Shown in pieces: positions 8,719 through 19,677 of a stretch of 22,054 bases of DNA (its first letter is position 1; each line of letters begins with the position of its first letter). The notes beneath the pieces are model-generated. The model worked only from the letters and a program-made list of their open reading frames with translations. It did not search any database and was not told where the DNA came from. The translations under genes and the position numbers were made by a program. Origin of the DNA: a virus; IMG/VR virus record IMGVR_UViG_3300042691_031063, positions 1-22,054 of that record, one strand, 5' to 3'.

Positions 8719-9012
8719 ATGGCAGTGAGTCGTTACCAGAAGGACACGATCATCGGAGCACCCCGACGGCTCTCGACGGCTGCCGCTGTGCTACGCATCC
8801 GTCAGTCGATCAACGCAGGCCTCATCCCAACCCGTGAGCTTGTACTGGCCGAGGGACAGCGTCTCGATCACCTGGCGGGTAACCTACTCGGCGACGGTAG
8901 GCTCTGGTGGGTTCTAGCAGCGACGTCGAACATCGGATGGGGGTTACAGGTTCCTCCTGGGACACGTCTCCTGGTCCCGATCGACATCGGTAAGGTTCTG
9001 GAGCTCGTCTAA
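8719..9012 (+). CDS. 53: LysM-like baseplate protein, gp53 family-like
   Basis: The 97-residue product resembles T4 gp53-type baseplate wedge proteins and short LysM-like baseplate proteins. Its second half carries the typical pattern: LAGNLLGDGRLWWVLAATSN (a helix with the Trp-Trp pair where this family usually has Tyr-Trp), then a VPPGTRLLVPI strand that matches the end of a LysM fold. The N-terminal half is a basic segment with repeated Arg. A GAGGAG sequence (about 8701-8706) lies upstream of the ATG. The stop shares its last base with the next start. The position between the tube-initiator-like and hub-like genes supports a baseplate role. Whether it is a true wedge subunit (gp53) or a hub-linked LysM adaptor cannot be decided by eye. 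Confidence 0.7.
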   Translation: MAVSRYQKDTIIGAPRRLSTAAAVLRIRQSINAGLIPTRELVLAEGQRLDHLAGNLLGDGRLWWVLAATSNIGWGLQVPPGTRLLVPIDIGKVLELV

Positions 9013-12000
9013 TGCCCAGATCACCGCTCGTCACCAGGGCGACCAAAGAGCTTGCCCTTTACTTTCAGGCTATCACCGACGCAGCTTTTATAGATCGTTC
9101 CTACAGGGCTGTGACATCACAGCAGGAAAGAAAAGATAGGATCAGCGATGATCCTGCGTTGAGGATCGAGACCAATCGCGCCATCATCTCACGAGTTGTC
9201 GATTACGTAGAGGGCACCGAGACGGCCGATCACATCTCAAACCTGATCAACGGTGCGGTGGGCTTCGCGTCATTCTACCAGGCAGCGTCAGGTGGTCTGA
9301 CCGACGTGTACAAGGAGGAATTCAGATTCCTGAAAGACTCCGGCGTACCGAAGGAGGCGGCGCCGCCGAAACTCGTCGAGCGCTCACCGATCATGAAGCT
9401 CATCGGTGATGGAGAGGGTGATCCGTCTCCTAAACCCACCACCGAAAACCCGAACTTCTACGCGATACTCGTCAATAACCCGTACATGGGACCGACCACC
9501 CGAGACACCGGGGCGGTTGAGATCTTCATGAACGCGATTCCGACACTGGAATTCAGCAAATGTGTCCCGTACATCGGTCTCGAGATCATCAGCCTACGAC
9601 GTACCTCAGGAGCAGTTGCTCCCCCGCTTACGCTTCTCGGTTATTTGAATCCATCGAAGCTCGGGTCGGCCGACCTCGCGATGATAAATGGGCAGCAGAC
9701 GACAGTGAGGAGCGAGGTTCTGGAAGTGGGACCAGGAATCAGGTCAGGCATCGAGCTCTTTACCATGCCTCAGACGCTAGCGAATCTAGGCGACACCGGC
9801 CCTGAGTTCGTACCTGTCATTGACAGGTTCCGCCCCCTTGCAAGCCTTGGCTCATTATCTCTCAGCACTAAGCTGCAGGGCGGTACCCTATCATTCACCA
9901 CGGGTAAGCTAGAGATTACCATACACGACAGGTCAAGGCTTCGTGAGGTTGCAACTTTCGTTCGACCGGATCTCTACGGGACCACCTTCCTCGATATCAC
10001 CCACGGTTGGTCACATCCAGATGGTGGTATACTTTCCGACAATTCTTACGGAAAGTTCCTTGATGCGTTGAAAACGACGACACGTTACCGTGTCTCAAAC
10101 TCATCGTACAGCTTCGAGGAGGGCGGTCAGATCAAGGTGACCCTCTCGATACAGAGCGTTGGATCGGTTGATCTGCTGTACCTGGGACCCAGGCAGACGA
10201 TCCCTGCGCTCGTCACATTACAAAATCTCATCAGGGAGATTAACGAGCGTCTCGCCGAACTCAGGTTTCGAGGTACTTCTCCCTCGATGGCTCCGTATGA
10301 TATTCTGGACACCTTCAAGGATCCAACGTCGGCTCTTCGCGCCGCCGGAGACGCTGACTTCATAAAGAAGCTCACCAGCGCTATCCCTAAGATGAAGGAC
10401 GGAACCATTCGCAAGAATATGAATGAGCTGGTCGGCATCCTGACGAAGGGAAGCAAACAGGCGGGAGGTGTACTCTCCGAAGTGCAGAAAGCGTTAATTA
10501 AACCCTACGACGAGATCATTGACAGATTACCCACGTTCGCAGACAAGGACGAGTTCGTCCGTCAGTTCATGGAGGAGAATCGATTCAAGTTCATGGATGA
10601 CAACAAGGTTGTTATCGACGCAACATTGGATGATGGGACGCAGATACAAAACATTGACGTAAAAGCTGGGCAGGACGTTGCGGTCACGTCATCGAGCGCC
10701 TCTGAATACATTTCTTTTGGATCAGCTTTCATGAAAATGGTGGCTGAGCCCGTCGCGAAATCAGGTCAGTACGATGAGGTACAGGTCATCTTCTACCCGT
10801 TCAACCAGTACGCGGGTGCCGTCCATGACCTACCGATCAGCTCATTCCCGCTTGAGAAGGGTCGTCTGTCAAAAGCCATCCAAGAGATCGTGAAGTACTC
10901 GCCCGAACTCTCGGCTAGAAGCATAATCAAGGTTCTTTACGATAAATTCATTCATTTCATGCCCTCCCGTGCCTATCTCATGGCTGGCTTTTACCAGCAG
11001 AAGAAGGACGATTCGACGAAGCTAGAGATGGAAGCAAAGCCGCTGAAGGAAGTTTACACGATCAAGTTACCCAACGGCACAAAGAAAAATGTTGCTGCGA
11101 ACCTGCAGCTGACCTTCGAGGAGCGACTTAGGGACGCTGGCGTGCCGGAGGGTAAATTTAAGACGCCTGTCGTCGAAGTTGCGGTTGAGGCAGCCCCGAT
11201 GCTCGACGTGAACGGTGCGCCGATAGTCGACGAAGCAACGGGAAATCCGAAGACGATAATAAAGATGCACGTGTACGATTCCGCGATGGATCCACACGCG
11301 ACTCTCACCGATATCATCTCAGCAGCGAAAGATAACGAGCTTGGAGTGATAAACTTACCGGTGGCTCAATATCAGTCGGCTGTTCAATCAGTTTCTAGAA
11401 CTGGCTTAACGGCACAGTCAATGATCAACAAGTACAACATTCCGAGAACCCTGGCAACAGGTTTAGAATCGGGCATCTTAGAAGCTGTGTCAAAAGATAA
11501 TCTTGATGTTATCAAGAACACCGAAGATGACGAATTCATTAAAAAATTGTTCGAGGGCGCAGTGTTCCTTCGGGTCAAGAGCACGTACGACGAGATAAAG
11601 AAGCTCGTCTCCTCCGGAATGCCGACGATCACATACGGATCCTCGATGACTGCCCTGACGAACGCGAGCCTCACGACCGGCGGTAGCGCAGGACTTGCCA
11701 ACGTCCAGCTGCAACGCGCGTTCGCCTCCCCCGGCGAGACGGCTGCTGAGAACGTTGACACGGGCGTACCGATGCAGCTCATACCGGCGCAGCTCAGCAT
11801 CACCACGATAGGCTGCCCACTCTTCTATCCAATGCAGAGATTCTTCGTCGATTTCGGTACCGGCACGTCGATCGATAACGTCTACTTCGTGACGTCCGTC
11901 GATAGTAACATCAGCAGGGAAGGCTACAAGACCGACGTCAAGATGAGCTTCGGTGAGGGTTTCGCGACCTATAGGAGTCTGAACCAGAAGCTTGCGATGA

Positions 12001-12530
12001 TGGCAGCGAATTGGGCAGACGCGACGAGAGGCAACAATGAGGATGATGGTTCGGCCATCAGCGTTGATCAATCACCAGTGGTGTTGGGTAATCTACGTGA
12101 CACGAGCGAGAATTACGAGAAGCTTCTCGCAGAGGCGTTCACGTTGCAGGGTCGGATCGGAGACGCCGCTGCTGCGGCCGCGCAGAGAGTGATCGCGCAG
12201 GCTCAAACTCGGGCGTTCTTGGCTCGTGCCGAGGCGGAGCGTAGTCTGCAATCCCGTCTGGAAGCGAAGCTCGATGATGCGACGAGGCAGAGGCTCCGAG
12301 ATGTCGAGACAGAGATCACAATAACTGAATTCAAACTCGAAAGAGCCAATACTGCAGCTGAGAAAGCGAAGGTGCTCGCGCAGGGTCTGGCAGAGGCGGA
12401 ACGCCTCGCAGCCAGTATGCCGGGTGGGCTTTCTGAGTTTTACCTCGCGCAGGCCATCGATAAGCGGGAGAGAGAGAAGGCCGTCGCGGCATCGAGACCG
12501 GCGGCTTCCGGATCTAAACCTGCGAAGTAG
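9012..12530 (+). CDS. Very large baseplate hub-like structural protein
   Basis: This 1172-residue virion protein has segments I recognise from large hub-like proteins of T4-related phages. A region near residues 155-195 contains FYAILVNNPYMGP and then IPTLEFSKCVPYIGLE. A beta-rich block near residues 295-385 contains KLEITIHDRSRL and FLDITHGWSHPDGG. A conserved-looking block near residues 930-990 contains IGCPLFYPMQRFFVDFGTG and then YFVTSVDSNISREGY, reminiscent of gp27-type hub domains. The last 150 residues are an alanine-rich, strongly charged helical region that should form a coiled coil. T4 gp27 has only 391 residues, so this protein carries large extra domains. The ATG overlaps the preceding stop by one base and has a GGAG about 8 bases upstream. 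The hub assignment is tentative; that it is structural is much safer. Confidence 0.6.
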   Translation: MPRSPLVTRATKELALYFQAITDAAFIDRSYRAVTSQQERKDRISDDPALRIETNRAIISRVVDYVEGTETADHISNLINGAVGFASFYQAASGGLTDVYKEEFRFLKDSGVPKEAAPPKLVERSPIMKLIGDGEGDPSPKPTTENPNFYAILVNNPYMGPTTRDTGAVEIFMNAIPTLEFSKCVPYIGLEIISLRRTSGAVAPPLTLLGYLNPSKLGSADLAMINGQQTTVRSEVLEVGPGIRSGIELFTMPQTLANLGDTGPEFVPVIDRFRPLASLGSLSLSTKLQGGTLSFTTGKLEITIHDRSRLREVATFVRPDLYGTTFLDITHGWSHPDGGILSDNSYGKFLDALKTTTRYRVSNSSYSFEEGGQIKVTLSIQSVGSVDLLYLGPRQTIPALVTLQNLIREINERLAELRFRGTSPSMAPYDILDTFKDPTSALRAAGDADFIKKLTSAIPKMKDGTIRKNMNELVGILTKGSKQAGGVLSEVQKALIKPYDEIIDRLPTFADKDEFVRQFMEENRFKFMDDNKVVIDATLDDGTQIQNIDVKAGQDVAVTSSSASEYISFGSAFMKMVAEPVAKSGQYDEVQVIFYPFNQYAGAVHDLPISSFPLEKGRLSKAIQEIVKYSPELSARSIIKVLYDKFIHFMPSRAYLMAGFYQQKKDDSTKLEMEAKPLKEVYTIKLPNGTKKNVAANLQLTFEERLRDAGVPEGKFKTPVVEVAVEAAPMLDVNGAPIVDEATGNPKTIIKMHVYDSAMDPHATLTDIISAAKDNELGVINLPVAQYQSAVQSVSRTGLTAQSMINKYNIPRTLATGLESGILEAVSKDNLDVIKNTEDDEFIKKLFEGAVFLRVKSTYDEIKKLVSSGMPTITYGSSMTALTNASLTTGGSAGLANVQLQRAFASPGETAAENVDTGVPMQLIPAQLSITTIGCPLFYPMQRFFVDFGTGTSIDNVYFVTSVDSNISREGYKTDVKMSFGEGFATYRSLNQKLAMMAANWADATRGNNEDDGSAISVDQSPVVLGNLRDTSENYEKLLAEAFTLQGRIGDAAAAAAQRVIAQAQTRAFLARAEAERSLQSRLEAKLDDATRQRLRDVETEITITEFKLERANTAAEKAKVLAQGLAEAERLAASMPGGLSEFYLAQAIDKREREKAVAASRPAASGSKPAK

Positions 12531-12567: not shown

Positions 12568-13743
12568 ATGCTCACCCTGTCGTCCCACTCTTTGAATTCA
12601 CCACGTGATCTCACGTACCACGATGGTCAGGTGAGCTGGTCCCAACCGCAGCCCGAATCGTGGTTCCTCGGTGACAGTCACGCTTCGAGATCATTCGAGG
12701 CCCTACTGGACGTTGCGGGCAAGCCGCACCCGAGAGTTGTCCCGGAGGAGTATGAGAGATCGATGGAGGGCCTCGCGCGTGGACAGGTTCCGTGGCCTCT
12801 CGTAGTGCCCCAGCATGTCCTAGGTGAGCATGTCAGGTCCATCGCATCCGAGTTAGACGACGTCCTTGAGCAGCTGGGATCGTACAGCGAGACTCTAGCA
12901 GCCTCCAGACGTATACTGAGCATGCTACGTCCATGTCGCATCGACCTTGCGGCTCTTCGAGTTGAGCAGGGAAAGGGCACTATGGGTGTTCTCGACACTT
13001 TCGAACCCGGACCCGACTTCATGTGTCAGGTTCCGGTGTACTCCCATGCGACAGCCACGGGTCGGCTCACCGTTCGTGAGGGTCCACGGATCCTGACGTT
13101 ACAGAAGGAGCATCGAAAGATACTCTCGAGTCGTTTCGATGGAGGTCGGGTAATGCAGGTTGACTTTGTGTCCCTCGAGCCCCGTGTCCTACGTCTGCTC
13201 GCGAATGGGTCTGCACCCATCGACATCTACTCCGATGTCGCAGAGAGGATCGGGGGTGGCGCGACACGCCGGCAGGTGAAGCTTGCCACGTTGAAGCTGC
13301 TCTACGGTTCCTCACGAGCCGGTCTAACCGAGGAGGTGGGATCGATCAGCACCCACTCCATCAAGAAGCTCGAGGAGTACTTCGGTCTGCCGAGCCTCCG
13401 CTCGAAGCTCGGCACCGAGCTAGCGAGATCCGGGATGATCAGGAGCTTCTGGGGACGTCCTCTTCGGGAGGCGACGGAGCAGCACCTGCTGATCTCCCAC
13501 TACACGCAGTCGACTTCCGTCGACGTCTCCCTGACCGGGTTCGGGGATCTGATGGATGACGTGATCGAGGCCGACCTCGATGTTATTCCATGCTATGTGC
13601 TTCACGATGCCCTGCTGGTTGACGTGCATCCGGACTCGATGGAATCCCTCAGATCGATCGTGGGCGAGGGTCTAGAGATCGAGGGTTTGGGACACTTCGA
13701 GGTTTCCCTGTCACCAGCATACTTAGAATCCGAGGGATCATGA
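12568..13743 (+). CDS. Minimal family A (Pol I-like) DNA polymerase, exonuclease domain absent
   Basis: The 391-residue product carries the family A polymerase motifs in order. TGRL at 164-167 matches the Pol I TGRLSS motif. Motif A at 195-212 (VMQVDFVSLEPRVLRLLA) has catalytic Asp199 and Glu204 at the steric-gate spacing. Motif B at 234-247 (RRQVKLATLKLLYG) has Arg234, Lys238 and Tyr246 at Klenow spacing, but Leu242 where Pol I has Phe762. Motif C at 345-352 (LHDALLVD) keeps His-Asp but has Ala348 in place of the usual Glu. Only about 150 residues precede these motifs, too few for a 3'-5' exonuclease plus thumb, so proofreading must come from another protein if it exists. T4 uses a family B polymerase, so this is unusual for a T4 relative. 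The ATG has no good Shine-Dalgarno site; the frame is open only back to 12538 without another standard start. The stop overlaps the next ATG. Confidence 0.75.
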   Translation: MLTLSSHSLNSPRDLTYHDGQVSWSQPQPESWFLGDSHASRSFEALLDVAGKPHPRVVPEEYERSMEGLARGQVPWPLVVPQHVLGEHVRSIASELDDVLEQLGSYSETLAASRRILSMLRPCRIDLAALRVEQGKGTMGVLDTFEPGPDFMCQVPVYSHATATGRLTVREGPRILTLQKEHRKILSSRFDGGRVMQVDFVSLEPRVLRLLANGSAPIDIYSDVAERIGGGATRRQVKLATLKLLYGSSRAGLTEEVGSISTHSIKKLEEYFGLPSLRSKLGTELARSGMIRSFWGRPLREATEQHLLISHYTQSTSVDVSLTGFGDLMDDVIEADLDVIPCYVLHDALLVDVHPDSMESLRSIVGEGLEIEGLGHFEVSLSPAYLESEGS

Positions 13744-14162
13744 CTCCGATTAGGGATAAGCTGTTCAAGAAGCTCGGAAGATCGTTCGGCGACTCGCCAC
13801 CGGGTTGGGCACGTGCAGGTGATTTAGGGATCGCAGATAGTAATCCTGCTTACATCTGCAATGGTCTGAACCTACGAGGATTCCAGGGTAAGGGTGAAGA
13901 TTGGACGCAGGACATCGCCGACGCCCTGAGACTGGCTTTCAGATCGAGGATACTCTACGGTCTCTACAGCGAACCCACGGTTTCCTATAACAGGTCAACG
14001 ATAAAGGTCAACGCAGCTGCTGATGTCGTTAAGTTCAGCCCGGCGGTCGCCATGCGTATGATAAAATCGACTCTTTGGGCCGCAGAGCAGCAGGGTAAGA
14101 TCGCCATGCCGTCCCGGTTGAAGGTGAGAATCGACGGCAGTCTGATCCAGATCGGCTTGTAA
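13740..14162 (+). CDS. Unknown protein, translationally coupled to the family A polymerase
   Basis: I do not recognise this 140-residue protein. The start overlaps the polymerase stop in an ATGA arrangement, so the two are almost certainly co-translated. The N-terminal 30 residues are basic. The middle contains a WTQDIADALRLAF helix, and the second half alternates predicted strands and a helix (KFSPAVAMRMIKSTLWAAEQ). The protein ends in a short strand pair (RLKVRIDGSLIQIGL). There is no metal motif or membrane segment. Tight coupling suggests it might be a polymerase partner or another replication accessory, but that rests on position alone. Confidence 0.65.
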   Translation: MTPIRDKLFKKLGRSFGDSPPGWARAGDLGIADSNPAYICNGLNLRGFQGKGEDWTQDIADALRLAFRSRILYGLYSEPTVSYNRSTIKVNAAADVVKFSPAVAMRMIKSTLWAAEQQGKIAMPSRLKVRIDGSLIQIGL

Positions 14163-14784: not shown

Positions 14785-15036
14785 ATGGACACGATAGACA
14801 GAAAGTCTCTTCGCCTTATGATCTTTGAGGCTCTCGATGAGATCGCTTGCGGCACGGATGAGGGTAGTGGGTGCATGGATGAGGAAGAGCTCGATGAGTT
14901 CTCGGGAGCTGGCGCAGTCGCTGGTTACACGTTGCCGCTTGGTATGCGTCCGTCTGGTCCACGTCGGGATATTGTCAACATCACCCGTCGGTCTTTCGGC
15001 GGCGTCGGTCGCAAGAAAAAGCGCCGCAGCCGCTGA
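14785..15036 (+). CDS. Small acidic protein with basic tail, unknown function
   Basis: This 83-residue protein is strongly bipolar: residues 15-40 are acidic (MDEEELDEF) and the last ten are basic (RKKKRRSR). Between them is SGAGAVAGYTLPLGMRPSGP, a Gly-rich motif resembling short motifs I have seen in assorted phage proteins of uncertain role. An AAGGAT sequence just upstream of the ATG gives a good ribosome-binding site. The basic tail could contact nucleic acid. The gene precedes the gp32 leader, and the candidate gp32 promoter starts at its very end. No function is assigned. Confidence 0.6.
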   Translation: MDTIDRKSLRLMIFEALDEIACGTDEGSGCMDEEELDEFSGAGAVAGYTLPLGMRPSGPRRDIVNITRRSFGGVGRKKKRRSR

Positions 15037-15179: not shown

Positions 15180-16016
15180 ATGGCAATCGATCTCGACGCA
15201 ATCCGCCGCAAGCTCGGCGAACTCTCCGGCAAGAACAACAAGCGTGACCAGCAGTGGAAGCCCGAGGAGGGCAAGGAGTACACGGTACGGCTCCTCGCAT
15301 TCCAGAACAACGATGGTCAGCCCTTCAAGGATCGCTGGTACTACTACGGCGTTGGCAACAGCCCGGGCATCCTCGCTCCCTTCCAGTTCGGCAAGCCGGA
15401 CCCGATCAAGGAGCTTCGCAGCAAGCTCTACGATGAGGGCAGCGACACAAGCCGTGAGCTTGCGAAGAAGGTTGCACCGAAGATGCGTACCTTCGCTCCG
15501 GTCATCGTTCGTGGTGAGGAGGACAAGGGCGTACGTATCTGGTCCTTCGGTAAGATGGTCTACCAGGACATCCTGAATCTCATGCTCGATGAGGACTACG
15601 GCGACGTTACCGATCCGCTCGAGGGACGTGACATCCGCGTCTCGGTCTCGAAGCTTCCTGGCAAGCAGTTTGCCGACACGAAGATCTCTCCCCGTGCGAA
15701 GGTTGAGCCGCTCAGCCGCGACTCCGCCCAGGCGAAGAAGTGGATCGAGTCGATCCCTGAGGTCGATGAGGCTGTGAATCTCAAGTCCTATGAGGAGATC
15801 GAGAAGATCGTCAACGACTGGATCAACGGCGGCGGCTCGAGCGACTCTGGCACCACCCGCGGTGGTCCTGCTCCTCGTACCGAGACTGACAGCAAGCTCG
15901 CGGCTTTCGATGATGATGATCTTCCGAAGACGAGCAAGAAGACCGGCTCCGGTCCGAAGGCGGCTGCCCGTGATCTCGATGATGCGTTCGCTGATCTCGA
16001 GGACAGCGGTTTCTGA
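15180..16016 (+). CDS. 32: Single-stranded DNA-binding protein gp32
   Basis: The 278-residue product resembles T4 gp32 (301 residues), which coats single-stranded DNA and organises replication, recombination and repair complexes. The N-terminal 25 residues are basic (the region used for cooperativity in T4). The core contains the oligonucleotide-binding fold with EYTVRLLAF, then aromatic residues WYYYGVG, and VRIWSFGKMVYQDIL matching the T4 KYRFGKKIWDKI region. The C terminus has two acidic clusters, AAFDDDDLP (near 232-240) and a final DLDDAFADLEDSGF, like the protein-recruiting tail of T4 gp32. The protein contains no Cys and no His, so the zinc site of T4 gp32 (His64, Cys77, Cys87, Cys90) is absent. 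It has its own candidate promoter, structured leader and terminator, consistent with separate, autoregulated expression. Confidence 0.88.
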   Translation: MAIDLDAIRRKLGELSGKNNKRDQQWKPEEGKEYTVRLLAFQNNDGQPFKDRWYYYGVGNSPGILAPFQFGKPDPIKELRSKLYDEGSDTSRELAKKVAPKMRTFAPVIVRGEEDKGVRIWSFGKMVYQDILNLMLDEDYGDVTDPLEGRDIRVSVSKLPGKQFADTKISPRAKVEPLSRDSAQAKKWIESIPEVDEAVNLKSYEEIEKIVNDWINGGGSSDSGTTRGGPAPRTETDSKLAAFDDDDLPKTSKKTGSGPKAAARDLDDAFADLEDSGF

Positions 16017-16114: not shown

Positions 16115-17314
16115 ATGGCAAAGAAGGATACTGCAGCAGCGAAGACGGCTGCTGATGATTTCACCAGCGAGCTTATCTCGTCCCTTAACAAGGACCATGG
16201 ATCACGGATAGCCTACAACCTGGCAGTCGATACGTCACCGACACACGTGAAGCGTTGGATCTCGAGTGGTTCGAGGCAACTCGACCTTGTCGTCTCGAAC
16301 AGGGCGAACGGCGGTTTACCTGAGGGTCGTATCGTGGAGATCTTCGGACCTCCGTCGATTGGAAAGTCGCACATCGCAACGCAGATCGCTCGTTCCACCC
16401 AGTCGATGGGCGGTATCGTCGTCTACATCGACACTGAGAACGGTACTTCGGTCGAGAACTTGGCTGCCCTCGGTGTCGATGTCTCTAAGCGCTTCGTCTA
16501 CGTCGATACCCACTGTACCGAGGAGGTACTGGACATCGCCGAGAAGACGATCCTGAAGGCCAAGGCGATGGCGAAGGACGTCCCAATCACCATCATCTGG
16601 GACTCGGTCGCCGCAAGCTCCCCGAAGGCTGAGCTTGAAGGCGCTTACGATAAGGATACGATCGGTCTCCAGGCCCGTGCGATCTCGAAGGGCATGCGTA
16701 AGATCACCGGCGTCATCGGCGACCAGAACGTTCTCTTCGTCATCCTCAACCAGATCCGCACGAAGATCGGCGTGATGCATGGCGATCCAACAACGACCCC
16801 CGGGGGCATGGCGATTCCATTCCACGCGTCGGTCCGCCTCAAGCTCGGCGCTGGTTCCCATATCGAGAACAAGCAGGGTGAGGCGATCGGCATCAACGTG
16901 TGGGCGAAGACGATCAAGAACAAGGTCGCGCCGCCCTTCCGCAAGGTGGAGTTCCGCATCATCTTCGGAAAGGGTATCGAGGAGCACGAGGAAGTTTTCG
17001 ACGTCCTTCGCGAACACGGTCCTGACATGGTGAATGACCACCAGGTCTCTGTCGAGGGTACGTCCGCCTGGAAGACGATCAAGGTCACGAATGAGAAGAA
17101 CGAGAACATTCTCGAGAAGAAGTTCTACAAGGCTGACTTCGGTGATCTCTGGAAGGATCCACAGTACAAGCCGTGGATCGATGGGCTTCTCGAGAAGGCA
17201 CTCATCCGAACGACGGTGAACACAGCTGACCTTGACATCGATCCTGAGTCGTACGAGGAGATGCGAGCTCTCCGCGATCAGATGGTCGGCGCTGACATCG
17301 ATCCGGAGGCCTAA
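16115..17314 (+). CDS. uvsX: UvsX recombinase (RecA-like)
   Basis: The 399-residue product is close in length to T4 UvsX (391). It is a RecA-family ATPase that forms filaments on single-stranded DNA and drives strand invasion in recombination-dependent replication. The Walker A motif is GPPSIGKS at 78-85. IDTENG at 105-110 places Glu109 at the catalytic position, and the Walker B strand is ITIIWDS at 158-164. The L2-region segment TTPGGMAIPFHASVRLKL (227-244) is typical of the RecA/UvsX group. The C terminus is acidic (VGADIDPEA). The start has a good AGGAG site, and the gene follows a terminator and candidate promoter. The downstream rnh-like gene begins at the base after the stop. It most likely acts with the gp32 encoded next door. 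I did not see genes for the T4 mediator UvsY in the window. Confidence 0.92.
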   Translation: MAKKDTAAAKTAADDFTSELISSLNKDHGSRIAYNLAVDTSPTHVKRWISSGSRQLDLVVSNRANGGLPEGRIVEIFGPPSIGKSHIATQIARSTQSMGGIVVYIDTENGTSVENLAALGVDVSKRFVYVDTHCTEEVLDIAEKTILKAKAMAKDVPITIIWDSVAASSPKAELEGAYDKDTIGLQARAISKGMRKITGVIGDQNVLFVILNQIRTKIGVMHGDPTTTPGGMAIPFHASVRLKLGAGSHIENKQGEAIGINVWAKTIKNKVAPPFRKVEFRIIFGKGIEEHEEVFDVLREHGPDMVNDHQVSVEGTSAWKTIKVTNEKNENILEKKFYKADFGDLWKDPQYKPWIDGLLEKALIRTTVNTADLDIDPESYEEMRALRDQMVGADIDPEA

Positions 17315-18277
17315 ATGCTCGGTGGAAGGCCCACTTTGCTGGTGGATGGGCTTAACTGCTTCACCCGTCACTTCTGCGCGAACCCAACACTGGGCGCGAA
17401 TGGGCAGGCTGTCGGCGGTATCGTGGGCTTTCTCAACGAGTTAGGCCAGAAATGCGAGTTTCTGAGCCCGAGACGTGTCATTGTCGTCTGGGAGGGCGGT
17501 GGTTCTCCCAGGCGACGGGCTCTCTTCGCTGAGTACAAGACGAAGAGAAAGCCCCAGAAGCTCAACAGGTACTACGAGGGTGATATACCCGACACTGTCG
17601 GTAATCGAAACTGGCAGGTTGCCACACTCGTGCAGCTCCTGAAGCTTCTACCGGTCCAGCAGAGCTACGTCACCGACTGTGAGGCTGATGACGTCATCGC
17701 CTACGTGGCGAGATACCGCCTGAAGGATGATCCGTGCGTCATCATGTCCTCCGACAAGGATTACTACCAGCTCCTCGATGATCGGGTTCGAGTCTGGAGT
17801 CCAACTTCAAAATCTTTCGTCAATGAGCCTGACGTTCTATCACGTTTTGGATGCACGGCTCGAAATTTCGTCGCGACACGATGCTTCGTAGGTGATGGAG
17901 CCGACGGAATCCCTGGAATCGACGGCGCTGGCTGGAAGACCATGGCTAAGCGCTTCCCGGAGGTCGCTGGAGAGGCTTTGCTTGGCCCAGATGATATTGT
18001 CAGCCTAGCTGAGTCCCGGGCCTCTCCGAAGGGTCCACAGTTGTTCAGAAGCATAGTCGAGGGCGCCGATGAGGCACGTCTCAACTGGCAGCTGATGAAC
18101 CTTGACGTGAGCAGCCTGTCAGGCACGCAGGTGGGAAAAATCGACTCCGGACTCGAATCATTCAGCCCCTCCGCTAATAAAATGGAATATCTCAGGTTGC
18201 TGGTCAAGTCCGGTATCAACAATTTCGATCGCGACCGAGTTTTCTTCCAACTGACCAGTCACCTCCTTCATACTTAA
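17315..18277 (+). CDS. rnh: RNase H / FEN-type 5'-3' nuclease (T4 rnh-like)
   Basis: The 320-residue product has the layout of T4 RNase H (305 residues), a flap endonuclease-family 5'-3' nuclease that removes RNA primers from lagging-strand fragments. Acidic residues in family positions include Asp11 (TLLVDGLN), the cluster CEADD at 122-126, SSDKD at 145-149, and FVGDGADGIPG at 191-201, the helix-hairpin-helix region with Asp194 and Asp197. The RRALFAEYKTKRKP segment (68-80) corresponds to the usual RRxLxPxYKxxR block; the preceding Asp of many homologues is Glu60 here. The start follows the uvsX stop directly, with GGAGG about 5 bases upstream, so it is co-transcribed with uvsX. The C-terminal 60 residues are less conserved in appearance. 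Confidence 0.88.
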   Translation: MLGGRPTLLVDGLNCFTRHFCANPTLGANGQAVGGIVGFLNELGQKCEFLSPRRVIVVWEGGGSPRRRALFAEYKTKRKPQKLNRYYEGDIPDTVGNRNWQVATLVQLLKLLPVQQSYVTDCEADDVIAYVARYRLKDDPCVIMSSDKDYYQLLDDRVRVWSPTSKSFVNEPDVLSRFGCTARNFVATRCFVGDGADGIPGIDGAGWKTMAKRFPEVAGEALLGPDDIVSLAESRASPKGPQLFRSIVEGADEARLNWQLMNLDVSSLSGTQVGKIDSGLESFSPSANKMEYLRLLVKSGINNFDRDRVFFQLTSHLLHT

Positions 18278-18285
18278 GAGAGCTC

Positions 18286-19677
18286 ATGACTTCAACTGAA
18301 CTTAACGCAGGCGAGGCTCTGTTTCGCCAGTATGGCAAGTCGTTTCAAGAGAAGATTTTCCAAGGGTTACTGACAGACCATGCCTGGGCTGCCCAGATGG
18401 TCGAGGTCATGCGCCCCGATTACTTCGACCTGAAGTACCTTGCGTTCCTAACCGATCGCTACTTCAAGCACTACGAGAAGTACAAGTGCTTCCCAACCAT
18501 GCAGCTCCTGGTCTCGATCATCAAGGAGGATCTGCAGCAGGGTCCCGATGCGATCCTCAAGGATCAGATCATCGACTTCCTGCATCGAATGCGAGCGAAT
18601 CCCGATCCTGGAGATCTCGGCTATACGAAGGAGAAGTCGCTTGATTTCTGCAAGCGTCAAGCTTTCCGTGAGGCGCTCGAGAAGGCAGTTGAGATGGTGG
18701 CAACCGACAAGTTCGAGTCTGTCGTCGATCTCATGAAGAAAGCGGTTTCCGTCGGCATGGCGAACACCACAGGTCACGATTTCTTCGAGGACGCCGAGGC
18801 TCGCTTCGTGAAGATTAATCGTAATCCGTGCCCGACAGGCCTCGATGTCCTTGACAGCAAGGAGATCTTCCGCGGGGGACTCGGTCGCGGTGAGCTCGGT
18901 GTCGTCGTGGCACCGACAGGCGTCGGTAAGTCACACTGGCTCACGGCGATGGGAGCTCACGCCCTCAAGATGGGTAAGAACGTTGTTCACTACACATTCG
19001 AACTCACGGAGACTGCCGTCGGTCTACGCTACGACTCGAACCTCTGTGGGATTCCCTCGAATGAGGTCCCTGATATGAAGGAGGACGTGCTCAACACCTA
19101 CAAGACGATGGATCTCGGTCGACTCATCATCAAGGAGTACCCGACGGGCACGGCAACAGTTCAGATGATCAGGAATCACATCGAGAAGCTGAGCCTGAAG
19201 GGCTTCGTCCCGAGCCTCATCGTTATCGACTACGCTGACATCATGAGATCGTCCAGGACATTCGACTCCCTTCGTCATGAGTTGAAGCTTGTGTACGAGG
19301 AGCTTCGTAACCTGGCGATGGAGCTCAACCTTCCGATCTGGACCGCCTCACAGGCGAACCGCGAAGCTTCAGGCGCCGAGGTCGTCGGTCTTGAGAACAT
19401 GAGTGAGGCTTACGGTAAGGCGATGGTTGCCGATGTCGTCGTGTCGATCTCCCGCAAACCAAGTGAAAAAGCTGACGGTTCAGGTCGTCTTTTTGTGGCA
19501 AAGAACCGAGCCGGGAAGGACGGCGTTCTTTTCCCTATTCACATCGACACTGCGCAATCTAGGATTAAGATTCTTGATGAGAACAGCTTGACGCTGAGCG
19601 AATCCATGACGCAAGACAACAATGATGCCAAGAAACTCCTGCGTAAGAAATGGCAGGAAGTGACGGGTGCGAAGTAA
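18286..19677 (+). CDS. 41: Replicative DNA helicase, DnaB family (T4 gp41-like)
   Basis: The 463-residue product matches T4 gp41 in length (475) and plan. This hexameric helicase unwinds the fork and works with the primase. The N-terminal 160 residues are helical (DnaB N-domain and linker). The RecA-like core has Walker A APTGVGKS at 209-216, the H2 segment VVHYTFELTETAVGLRYDS at 233-251, Walker B LIVIDYADI at 311-319 with Asp315, and the H3 segment IWTASQANREASG at 351-363. A later SISRKPSEK and LFVAKNRAGKDG block supplies the arginine-rich region (about 387-415). The start lies 8 bases after the rnh-like stop, with GAGAGC upstream. The gene is followed by the ribonucleotide reductase with only a ribosome-binding site in between. 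No gp59-like loader is visible in the window. Confidence 0.9.
   Translation: MTSTELNAGEALFRQYGKSFQEKIFQGLLTDHAWAAQMVEVMRPDYFDLKYLAFLTDRYFKHYEKYKCFPTMQLLVSIIKEDLQQGPDAILKDQIIDFLHRMRANPDPGDLGYTKEKSLDFCKRQAFREALEKAVEMVATDKFESVVDLMKKAVSVGMANTTGHDFFEDAEARFVKINRNPCPTGLDVLDSKEIFRGGLGRGELGVVVAPTGVGKSHWLTAMGAHALKMGKNVVHYTFELTETAVGLRYDSNLCGIPSNEVPDMKEDVLNTYKTMDLGRLIIKEYPTGTATVQMIRNHIEKLSLKGFVPSLIVIDYADIMRSSRTFDSLRHELKLVYEELRNLAMELNLPIWTASQANREASGAEVVGLENMSEAYGKAMVADVVVSISRKPSEKADGSGRLFVAKNRAGKDGVLFPIHIDTAQSRIKILDENSLTLSESMTQDNNDAKKLLRKKWQEVTGAK

Follow-up and report, generated by a model that had tools for sequence, protein, structure and literature searches.

Since divPolA1 was described in 2024 as a second family A DNA polymerase (PolA) encoded upstream of conserved replication genes in 14 large phages (PMC11348598), it has been an open question why some large phages carry a second PolA that lacks proofreading. 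The locus analyzed here raises this question for a further phage lineage. In a 22,054-nucleotide virus record (IMGVR_UViG_3300042691_031063; this whole stretch is referred to as the window), an initial annotation had recognized a minimal family A polymerase of 391 residues (here P0001), and had offered two readings of it: the replicative enzyme of a lineage in which polymerase and exonuclease are split, or an accessory polymerase kept beside a family B enzyme. Given that the window is a 22-kb record, the remaining genome had to be read from relatives. We searched 16 large relatives, with Flavobacterium phage immuto as the 17th record, and collected a family of 60 IMG/VR loci with the patterns Q[VI]DFVSLE or [VI]SH[FY][TA]QST. 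Among 50,697 GenBank phage records, no close phage relative was found, the best match having 28% identity and none covering 80% of P0001.

A family A polymerase domain without an exonuclease

P0001, which has an ATG start common to its near relatives, was confirmed as a divergent family A DNA polymerase without a 3'-5' exonuclease domain. The motif residues listed in the initial annotation were all present at Pol I spacing (Table 1). On its own, the protein matched Pfam DNA_pol_A (PF00476) with an E-value of 5e-6 and 26.2 bits, below the curated cut-off of 34.3, which was passed by the proteins of 11 of the 16 large relatives; it matched phrog_17 'DNA polymerase' at 8.6e-14 and had no match to the family B domain (PF00136) in the Pfam search. 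While a single-sequence phmmer search of the PDB returned just one weak chance match to an unrelated protein, a profile of ten relatives matched Bst Pol I at 1.6e-7, followed by Pol nu (2.8e-5) and Pol theta (2e-4), and a profile-profile comparison of the 53-member family with a PolA panel reached 1.1e-26.

Structure prediction, a check suggested with the initial annotation, recovered the palm-fingers-thumb fold of Pol I. The AlphaFold2 model had a pLDDT of 93.7 and a pTM of 0.91, and its top Foldseek matches were all Taq, Bst and Klenow fragments, with E-values down to 6e-14 and TM values up to 0.69 by query length. Fold and catalytic residues are thus those of bacterial Pol I, at 12–18% identity in structural alignments. 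The model has a single long helix ahead of the palm, whereas the Klenow thumb has two long helices at that place. Given that the polymerase domain alone occupies the protein, with only ~75 residues of uncertain ancestry before the first long helix, the earlier remark that it leaves no room for a 3'-5' exonuclease was right.

Table 1. Features of the window, with the family C polymerase gene of the 143-kb relative G001 in the last row
Feature	Coordinates	Strand	Evidence or remark
97-aa ORF, upstream	8719-9012		in order with the large baseplate gene in all contigs with room
Large baseplate-region protein	9012..12530	+	always immediately upstream of the polymerase
Exonuclease-less family A DNA polymerase, 391 aa (P0001)	12568..13743	+	ATG start
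TGRL, residues 164-167	13057..13068	+	Arg166 = Pol I Arg668; alignment with E. coli Pol I
Motif A, residues 194-212, includes QVDFVSLEPRV	13147..13203	+	Asp199 = Pol I Asp705, Glu204 = Glu710
Motif B, residues 234-247	13267..13308	+	Arg234 = Arg754, Lys238 = Lys758, Leu242 = position 762, Tyr246 = Tyr766
Motif C, residues 341-356 (PCYVLHDALLVDVHPD)	13588..13635	+	His346-Asp347 = His881-Asp882, Ala348 replaces Glu883
Fast-evolving 140-aa ORF	13740..14162	+	no family match in Pfam and PHROG searches
HD-domain phosphohydrolase-like protein, 194 aa	14192..14776	+	weak: HDOD E 0.087, phrog_28876 metal-dependent phosphohydrolase E 0.0076
Small 83-aa cluster ORF	14785..15036	+	
gp32-like single-strand DNA-binding protein	15180..16016	+	PF08804 2.1e-11, phrog_1192 4.6e-17
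UvsX/RecA recombinase	16115..17314	+	PF00154 2.9e-62, phrog_97 3.1e-71
5'-3' exonuclease of flap endonuclease type, same family as the 5' nuclease domain of Pol I	17315..18277	+	PF02739 4e-25
DnaB/gp41-like replicative helicase	18286..19677	+	PF03796 4.1e-18, phrog_19 5.4e-74
Ribonucleotide reductase (RNR) large chain, incomplete at contig end	19684..22053	+	PF02867 3.4e-88
Pol III alpha (family C) of G001, 1222 aa	L018:5705-9373; G001:43705-47373	-	phrog_405 6.8e-224, PF07733 4.9e-60

Conservation was assessed in an alignment of 53 members, including P0001, to which the others were 26–77% identical. The equivalents of Asp705, Glu710, Arg754, Lys758, His881 and Asp882 were invariant (Arg234 and Lys238 each in 53/53), the invariance of motif A being partly built in by the search patterns and that of motifs B and C not, and the equivalent of Arg166 was Arg in 52/53, with one gap. 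Position 762 (residue 242) was Leu in 39 members and Ile in 14, while the residue after the motif C Asp was Ala in 50/53 and Ser in 3/53. The initial annotation had pointed out Leu762 and the non-Glu residue after the motif C Asp as departures from Pol I. Neither is an anomaly: Leu762 is one of three common viral PolA states and is described as making Taq slower yet more accurate (PMC6302109), and HDS or HDA at motif C is also found in HMO-2011, SscM1, Bacchae, SIO-2 and Herelleviridae phages. Given that both states are known in other phage PolAs, we rejected the idea that they mark an inactive or unusual enzyme.

The gene is under purifying selection, as indicated by dN/dS values of 0.05–0.26, which are rough since dS was often > 1. 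In the same contigs, UvsX and DnaB had values of 0.01–0.07, so that constraint on the polymerase appears several-fold weaker, with the same roughness of the ratios. In comparison with loci L030-L043, L045 and L050, the polymerase, the 140-aa ORF that ends at 14162 and the baseplate-region gene had diverged far faster (27–69% identity to the window), while UvsX, DnaB and the HD protein of these loci were mostly 83–98% identical to it. Recombination, host or defence pressure, and relaxed constraint are candidate causes of this divergence.

A protein with these features could still be devoted to something other than DNA polymerization, as a primer-making or RNA polymerase-like enzyme or as a catalytically weak regulatory remnant. 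The replaced Glu of motif C and the single helix ahead of the palm would fit such a function, and divPolA2, another second phage PolA, has been suggested as a possible RNA polymerase (PMC11348598). We consider this extremely improbable. Glu204, equivalent to the Glu710 that excludes ribonucleotides, was present in 53/53 members, both catalytic Asp residues are intact, the HDS/HDA state occurs in ordinary phage PolAs, the best structural matches are DNA polymerases, and a DnaG-type primase has its own gene.

Gene neighbourhood and the companion polymerase

The T4 type of the phage carrying P0001, stated in the initial annotation, is supported: the window has T4_baseplate, gp32 and UvsX as T4 signature, and G001, whose PolA is 67–68% identical to P0001, has portal, head and terminase families of T4 type. 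The polymerase occupies a slot with the order baseplate, PolA, gp32, UvsX, 5'-3' exonuclease, DnaB and RNR. Downstream, gp32, UvsX, the 5'-3' exonuclease and DnaB followed in order in 52/52 loci with at least 6 kb of sequence on that side (50 distinct contigs, after two contigs counted twice were removed), and the 97-aa and large baseplate-region genes preceded the polymerase in 41/41 loci with 5.5 kb upstream (40 distinct contigs). The HD-domain protein was kept in most relatives. Two family members (L218 and L219) come from contigs that binning had assigned to a Halobacteriovorax MAG and a Flavobacteriales MAG, which are possible host hints.

A position in the core replication cluster, together with helicase, single-strand DNA-binding protein and recombinase, is what a replicase might have, and a replication role was likewise proposed from the neighbourhood by the authors who described divPolA1 (PMC11348598). 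P0001 could in that case be the lineage's replicative polymerase, with its exonuclease supplied by a separate gene. The large relatives argue against this split-enzyme model, which we regard as very unlikely. A family C polymerase (PF07733) was detected in 9/16 of them, always on the same strand as PolA and 22–45 kb past it, and thus in 9/9 records that reach that locus. The contigs of the 7/16 without this gene all stop < 20 kb past PolA, so that all seven absences are attributed to contig truncation, and a clade with this PolA as its sole polymerase was ruled out. No gene for a Pol I-type (DNA_pol_A_exo1) or RNase_T/DnaQ exonuclease was found in 12 large records, and no PolB, including the gp43 looked for on the suggestion of the initial annotation, among the 16 large relatives.

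The precedent named for a split family A enzyme, Rhodothermus phage RM378, also proved to be of another kind. Its p012 carries the annotation 'similar to DNA polymerase I' but belongs to the 5'-3' exonucleases (PF02739), and the product annotated as 'DNA polymerase', p024, corresponds to a PolB exonuclease domain (PF03104). The PolB polymerase domain is encoded elsewhere, at 79977-81137, and exonuclease and polymerase are thus separate genes (L024:21996-22937 and NC_004735 79977-81137). RM378 is therefore a T4-type phage in which several genes share the polymerase functions, but the enzyme is of family B, in contrast to P0001, and we rejected it as precedent. Given the family C gene in all contigs that reach its locus, and the lack of PolB and exonuclease genes in the records searched, both the split family A model and a PolB companion are disfavoured, and an accessory role beside a family C enzyme is favoured. 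Of the second reading in the initial annotation, the accessory role has stood, while its family B partner has been replaced by family C.

The relatives nearest to the window among those showing the family C gene have PolAs 54–68% identical to P0001, and family C Pol III alpha is probably also the main replicase of the window's phage, encoded outside the 22 kb available. In G001, this protein retained the catalytic PDIDTD and KFDLLGL motifs, and its alignment with Taq alpha showed the PHP ligand residues in place (HxH, D, H, E, H, C, DxH); those ligand residues that were checked in G016 were present there too. Given that these residues align with those of Taq alpha, the phage Pol III alpha likely proofreads via its own PHP domain. 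Since its set of PHP metal ligands is apparently full and G001 was found to have no DnaQ gene, it may represent a PHP-proofreading replicase. The C-terminal region of this protein showed no simple beta-clamp motif.

Several further genes were observed in these records. G001 has a second 5'-3' exonuclease (phrog_107, 276 aa; L017:7526-8356 (-)) besides that of the replication cluster, as well as a UvdE-type UV endonuclease (L016:15833-16849 (-)), an Fpg-like glycosylase (L018:18917-19726 (-)), GroEL (L017:5690-7285 (-)), a glutamine synthetase-like gene (L019:3334-4368 (-); PF00120 1.1e-16, PF03951 1.7e-12), and both a ThyA-type thymidylate synthase (L018:3132-4133 (-)) and ThyX (L019:2500-3132 (-)). 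SbcD- and SbcC-like (gp47/gp46) domains were fused in one 1042-aa ORF (L021:16110-19238 (-)).

Relationship to divPolA1 and other viral polymerases

The slot described above is the one in which divPolA1 resides. In immuto, divPolA1 (QQO91919.1) is followed by two ORFs, the single-strand DNA-binding protein, recombinase, 5'-3' exonuclease, DnaB and RNR, and the gene for a full PolA is located next to GroES/GroEL. Homologues of divPolA1 also occupy this slot in Microcystis phage Mel-JY01 and in the 484-kb LR756508, both of which encode PolB as well, and LR756508 also has a homologue of the 97-aa gene upstream. Given this common gene order, P0001 sits in the divPolA1 slot. In Mel-JY01, the divPolA1 homologue (WWT39333.1, L027:15398-16624) is annotated as hypothetical, while the protein annotated as 'DNA polymerase I' (WWT39339.1) matches the cluster's 5'-3' exonuclease. 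The regular polymerase alongside divPolA1 may belong to family A, B or C (PMC11348598).

Both groups are second polymerases in the same position without a working 3'-5' exonuclease and with Ala after the motif C Asp. However, the exonuclease domain is wholly missing in the P0001 family, while in divPolA1 it is retained but inactivated, with all three Asp replaced (PMC11348598); ~75 residues precede the first long helix in P0001 compared to ~140 before the alignable part in immuto divPolA1, whose model had a middling pLDDT of 71.8 and was used for element order only. Additionally, the P0001 family kept the equivalents of Glu710, Arg754 and His881; in divPolA1, the first is replaced by His and the third by Tyr, and the Arg is missing. 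In the family A tree, one of the checks suggested with the initial annotation, the P0001 family and divPolA1 formed two separate clades (99/98 and 100/100) on long branches. Given this separation, the residues that divPolA1 has lost and the missing exonuclease domain, we did not file the P0001 family as divPolA1.

The tree was less decisive on kinship. It placed the P0001 family and divPolA1 together to one side of the sampled PolAs, with a support of 93/93, while the AU test did not reject a grouping of the P0001 family with HMO-2011-type PolA (p 0.144). BLASTP of P0001 against divPolA1, divPolA2 and the immuto PolA2 gave nothing significant, and the profile-profile link to divPolA1 was weak (E 1.5e-6, probability 90). 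We consider it probable, from the tree and the shared features, that the P0001 family and divPolA1 are sister groups which share this slot. It is also conceivable, although we judge it the less likely history, that an unrelated PolA was swapped into a former divPolA1 slot, or the reverse, so that position is shared and descent is not. Such a swap stays a rival because polymerase replacement in situ, with unchanged neighbours, is documented for tailed phages (PMC11348598), and the nil BLASTP similarity to immuto divPolA1, the far stronger profile link to ordinary PolA (1e-26) and the AU result are in line with it. The joint position of both clades at 93/93, as well as the common loss of exonuclease function and the common Ala, speak for shared descent instead, and divPolA1 is the more degenerate of the two, which would weaken any score between them.

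HMO-2011-type viral PolA was the best BLAST match in cultured phages (28%) and the best profile match, and it has the motif A pattern DF..LE.R. in common with the P0001 family. It differs in being a ~680-aa protein with a 3'-5' exonuclease domain from a 55-kb phage, and in having Phe at 762 and Ser following the Asp of motif C instead of Leu/Ile and Ala. The divPolA2 of barbaviruses and vibriophages (AUR84708) is, like P0001, an exonuclease-less second PolA beside another replicase, but it has a variable gene neighbourhood and an unrelated N-terminal domain (PMC11348598). Given the invariant neighbourhood of P0001 and a weak profile link (probability 26%), an assignment of P0001 to divPolA2 was ruled out.

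A predicted role as half of a split Pol I

We predict from its catalytic residues, fold and purifying selection that P0001 is an active DNA polymerase, and its role in this T4-type phage lineage is probably that of an additional, accessory polymerase, with a family C Pol III alpha as the replicase. Sequence alone does not separate a replicase from a helper, and work on the lagging strand is read from the neighbours. In bacteria, the Pol III replicase is accompanied by Pol I, which removes primers with its 5' nuclease and fills the gaps with its polymerase. A similar division of labour is proposed for P0001, with the difference that its Pol I-type 5' nuclease is a separate gene in the same cluster and that a 3'-5' exonuclease domain is missing. 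P0001 would then supply the polymerase part of a split Pol I. The neighbouring 5'-3' exonuclease would take off RNA primers or flaps, and P0001 would act on gp32-coated DNA to fill gaps on the lagging strand and those arising in recombination or excision repair. Slow, accurate incorporation of the Leu762 type may partly offset the absent proofreading, while Pol III alpha would perform the bulk copying, its PHP domain probably proofreading. Given that the 5' nuclease, PolA, gp32 and DnaB lie in one cluster and Pol III alpha elsewhere, the simplest reading is that PolA and the 5' nuclease form a split Pol I serving in Okazaki maturation and in repair synthesis. Gap filling also fits the gene content of G001, since the products of UvdE and the Fpg-like glycosylase need it.

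The chief alternative for its function is a polymerase directed to recombination or damage, similar to the exonuclease-less Pol theta and Pol nu, which would extend UvsX D-loops or bypass lesions without taking part in Okazaki maturation. UvsX and gp32 are nearby in every contig, the family profile also matches Pol nu and Pol theta, and P0001 lacks an exonuclease as these enzymes do. However, the 5'-3' exonuclease and DnaB are just as constant as neighbours, neither a helicase nor insertion loops of the Pol theta type were noticed, and Bst Pol I outscores both Pol nu and Pol theta, so that we regard this role as unlikely compared to that of a split Pol I.

More tentatively, and with somewhat less than even confidence, the uncultured lineage might have its own bacterial-style two-polymerase replisome, composed of a PHP-proofreading Pol III alpha and a split Pol I, in which the block of PolA, 5' nuclease, UvsX and gp32 would be kept across distant phages while the replicase is swapped among families A, B and C.

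A second phage PolA of the divPolA1 type was known already (PMC11348598); what appears to be new is a better-preserved, exonuclease-less separate clade in the same slot, for which a function can be predicted. The 60 loci widen the second-PolA arrangement to a lineage without close relatives among GenBank phages. Given that the P0001 family is better preserved than divPolA1, with the equivalents of Glu710, Arg754 and His881 and a confident Pol I fold, it would be the better enzyme for testing the role of such polymerases, and its constant pairing with a 5' nuclease and a family C replicase leads to a concrete prediction, namely that these phages use P0001 as part of a split Pol I.
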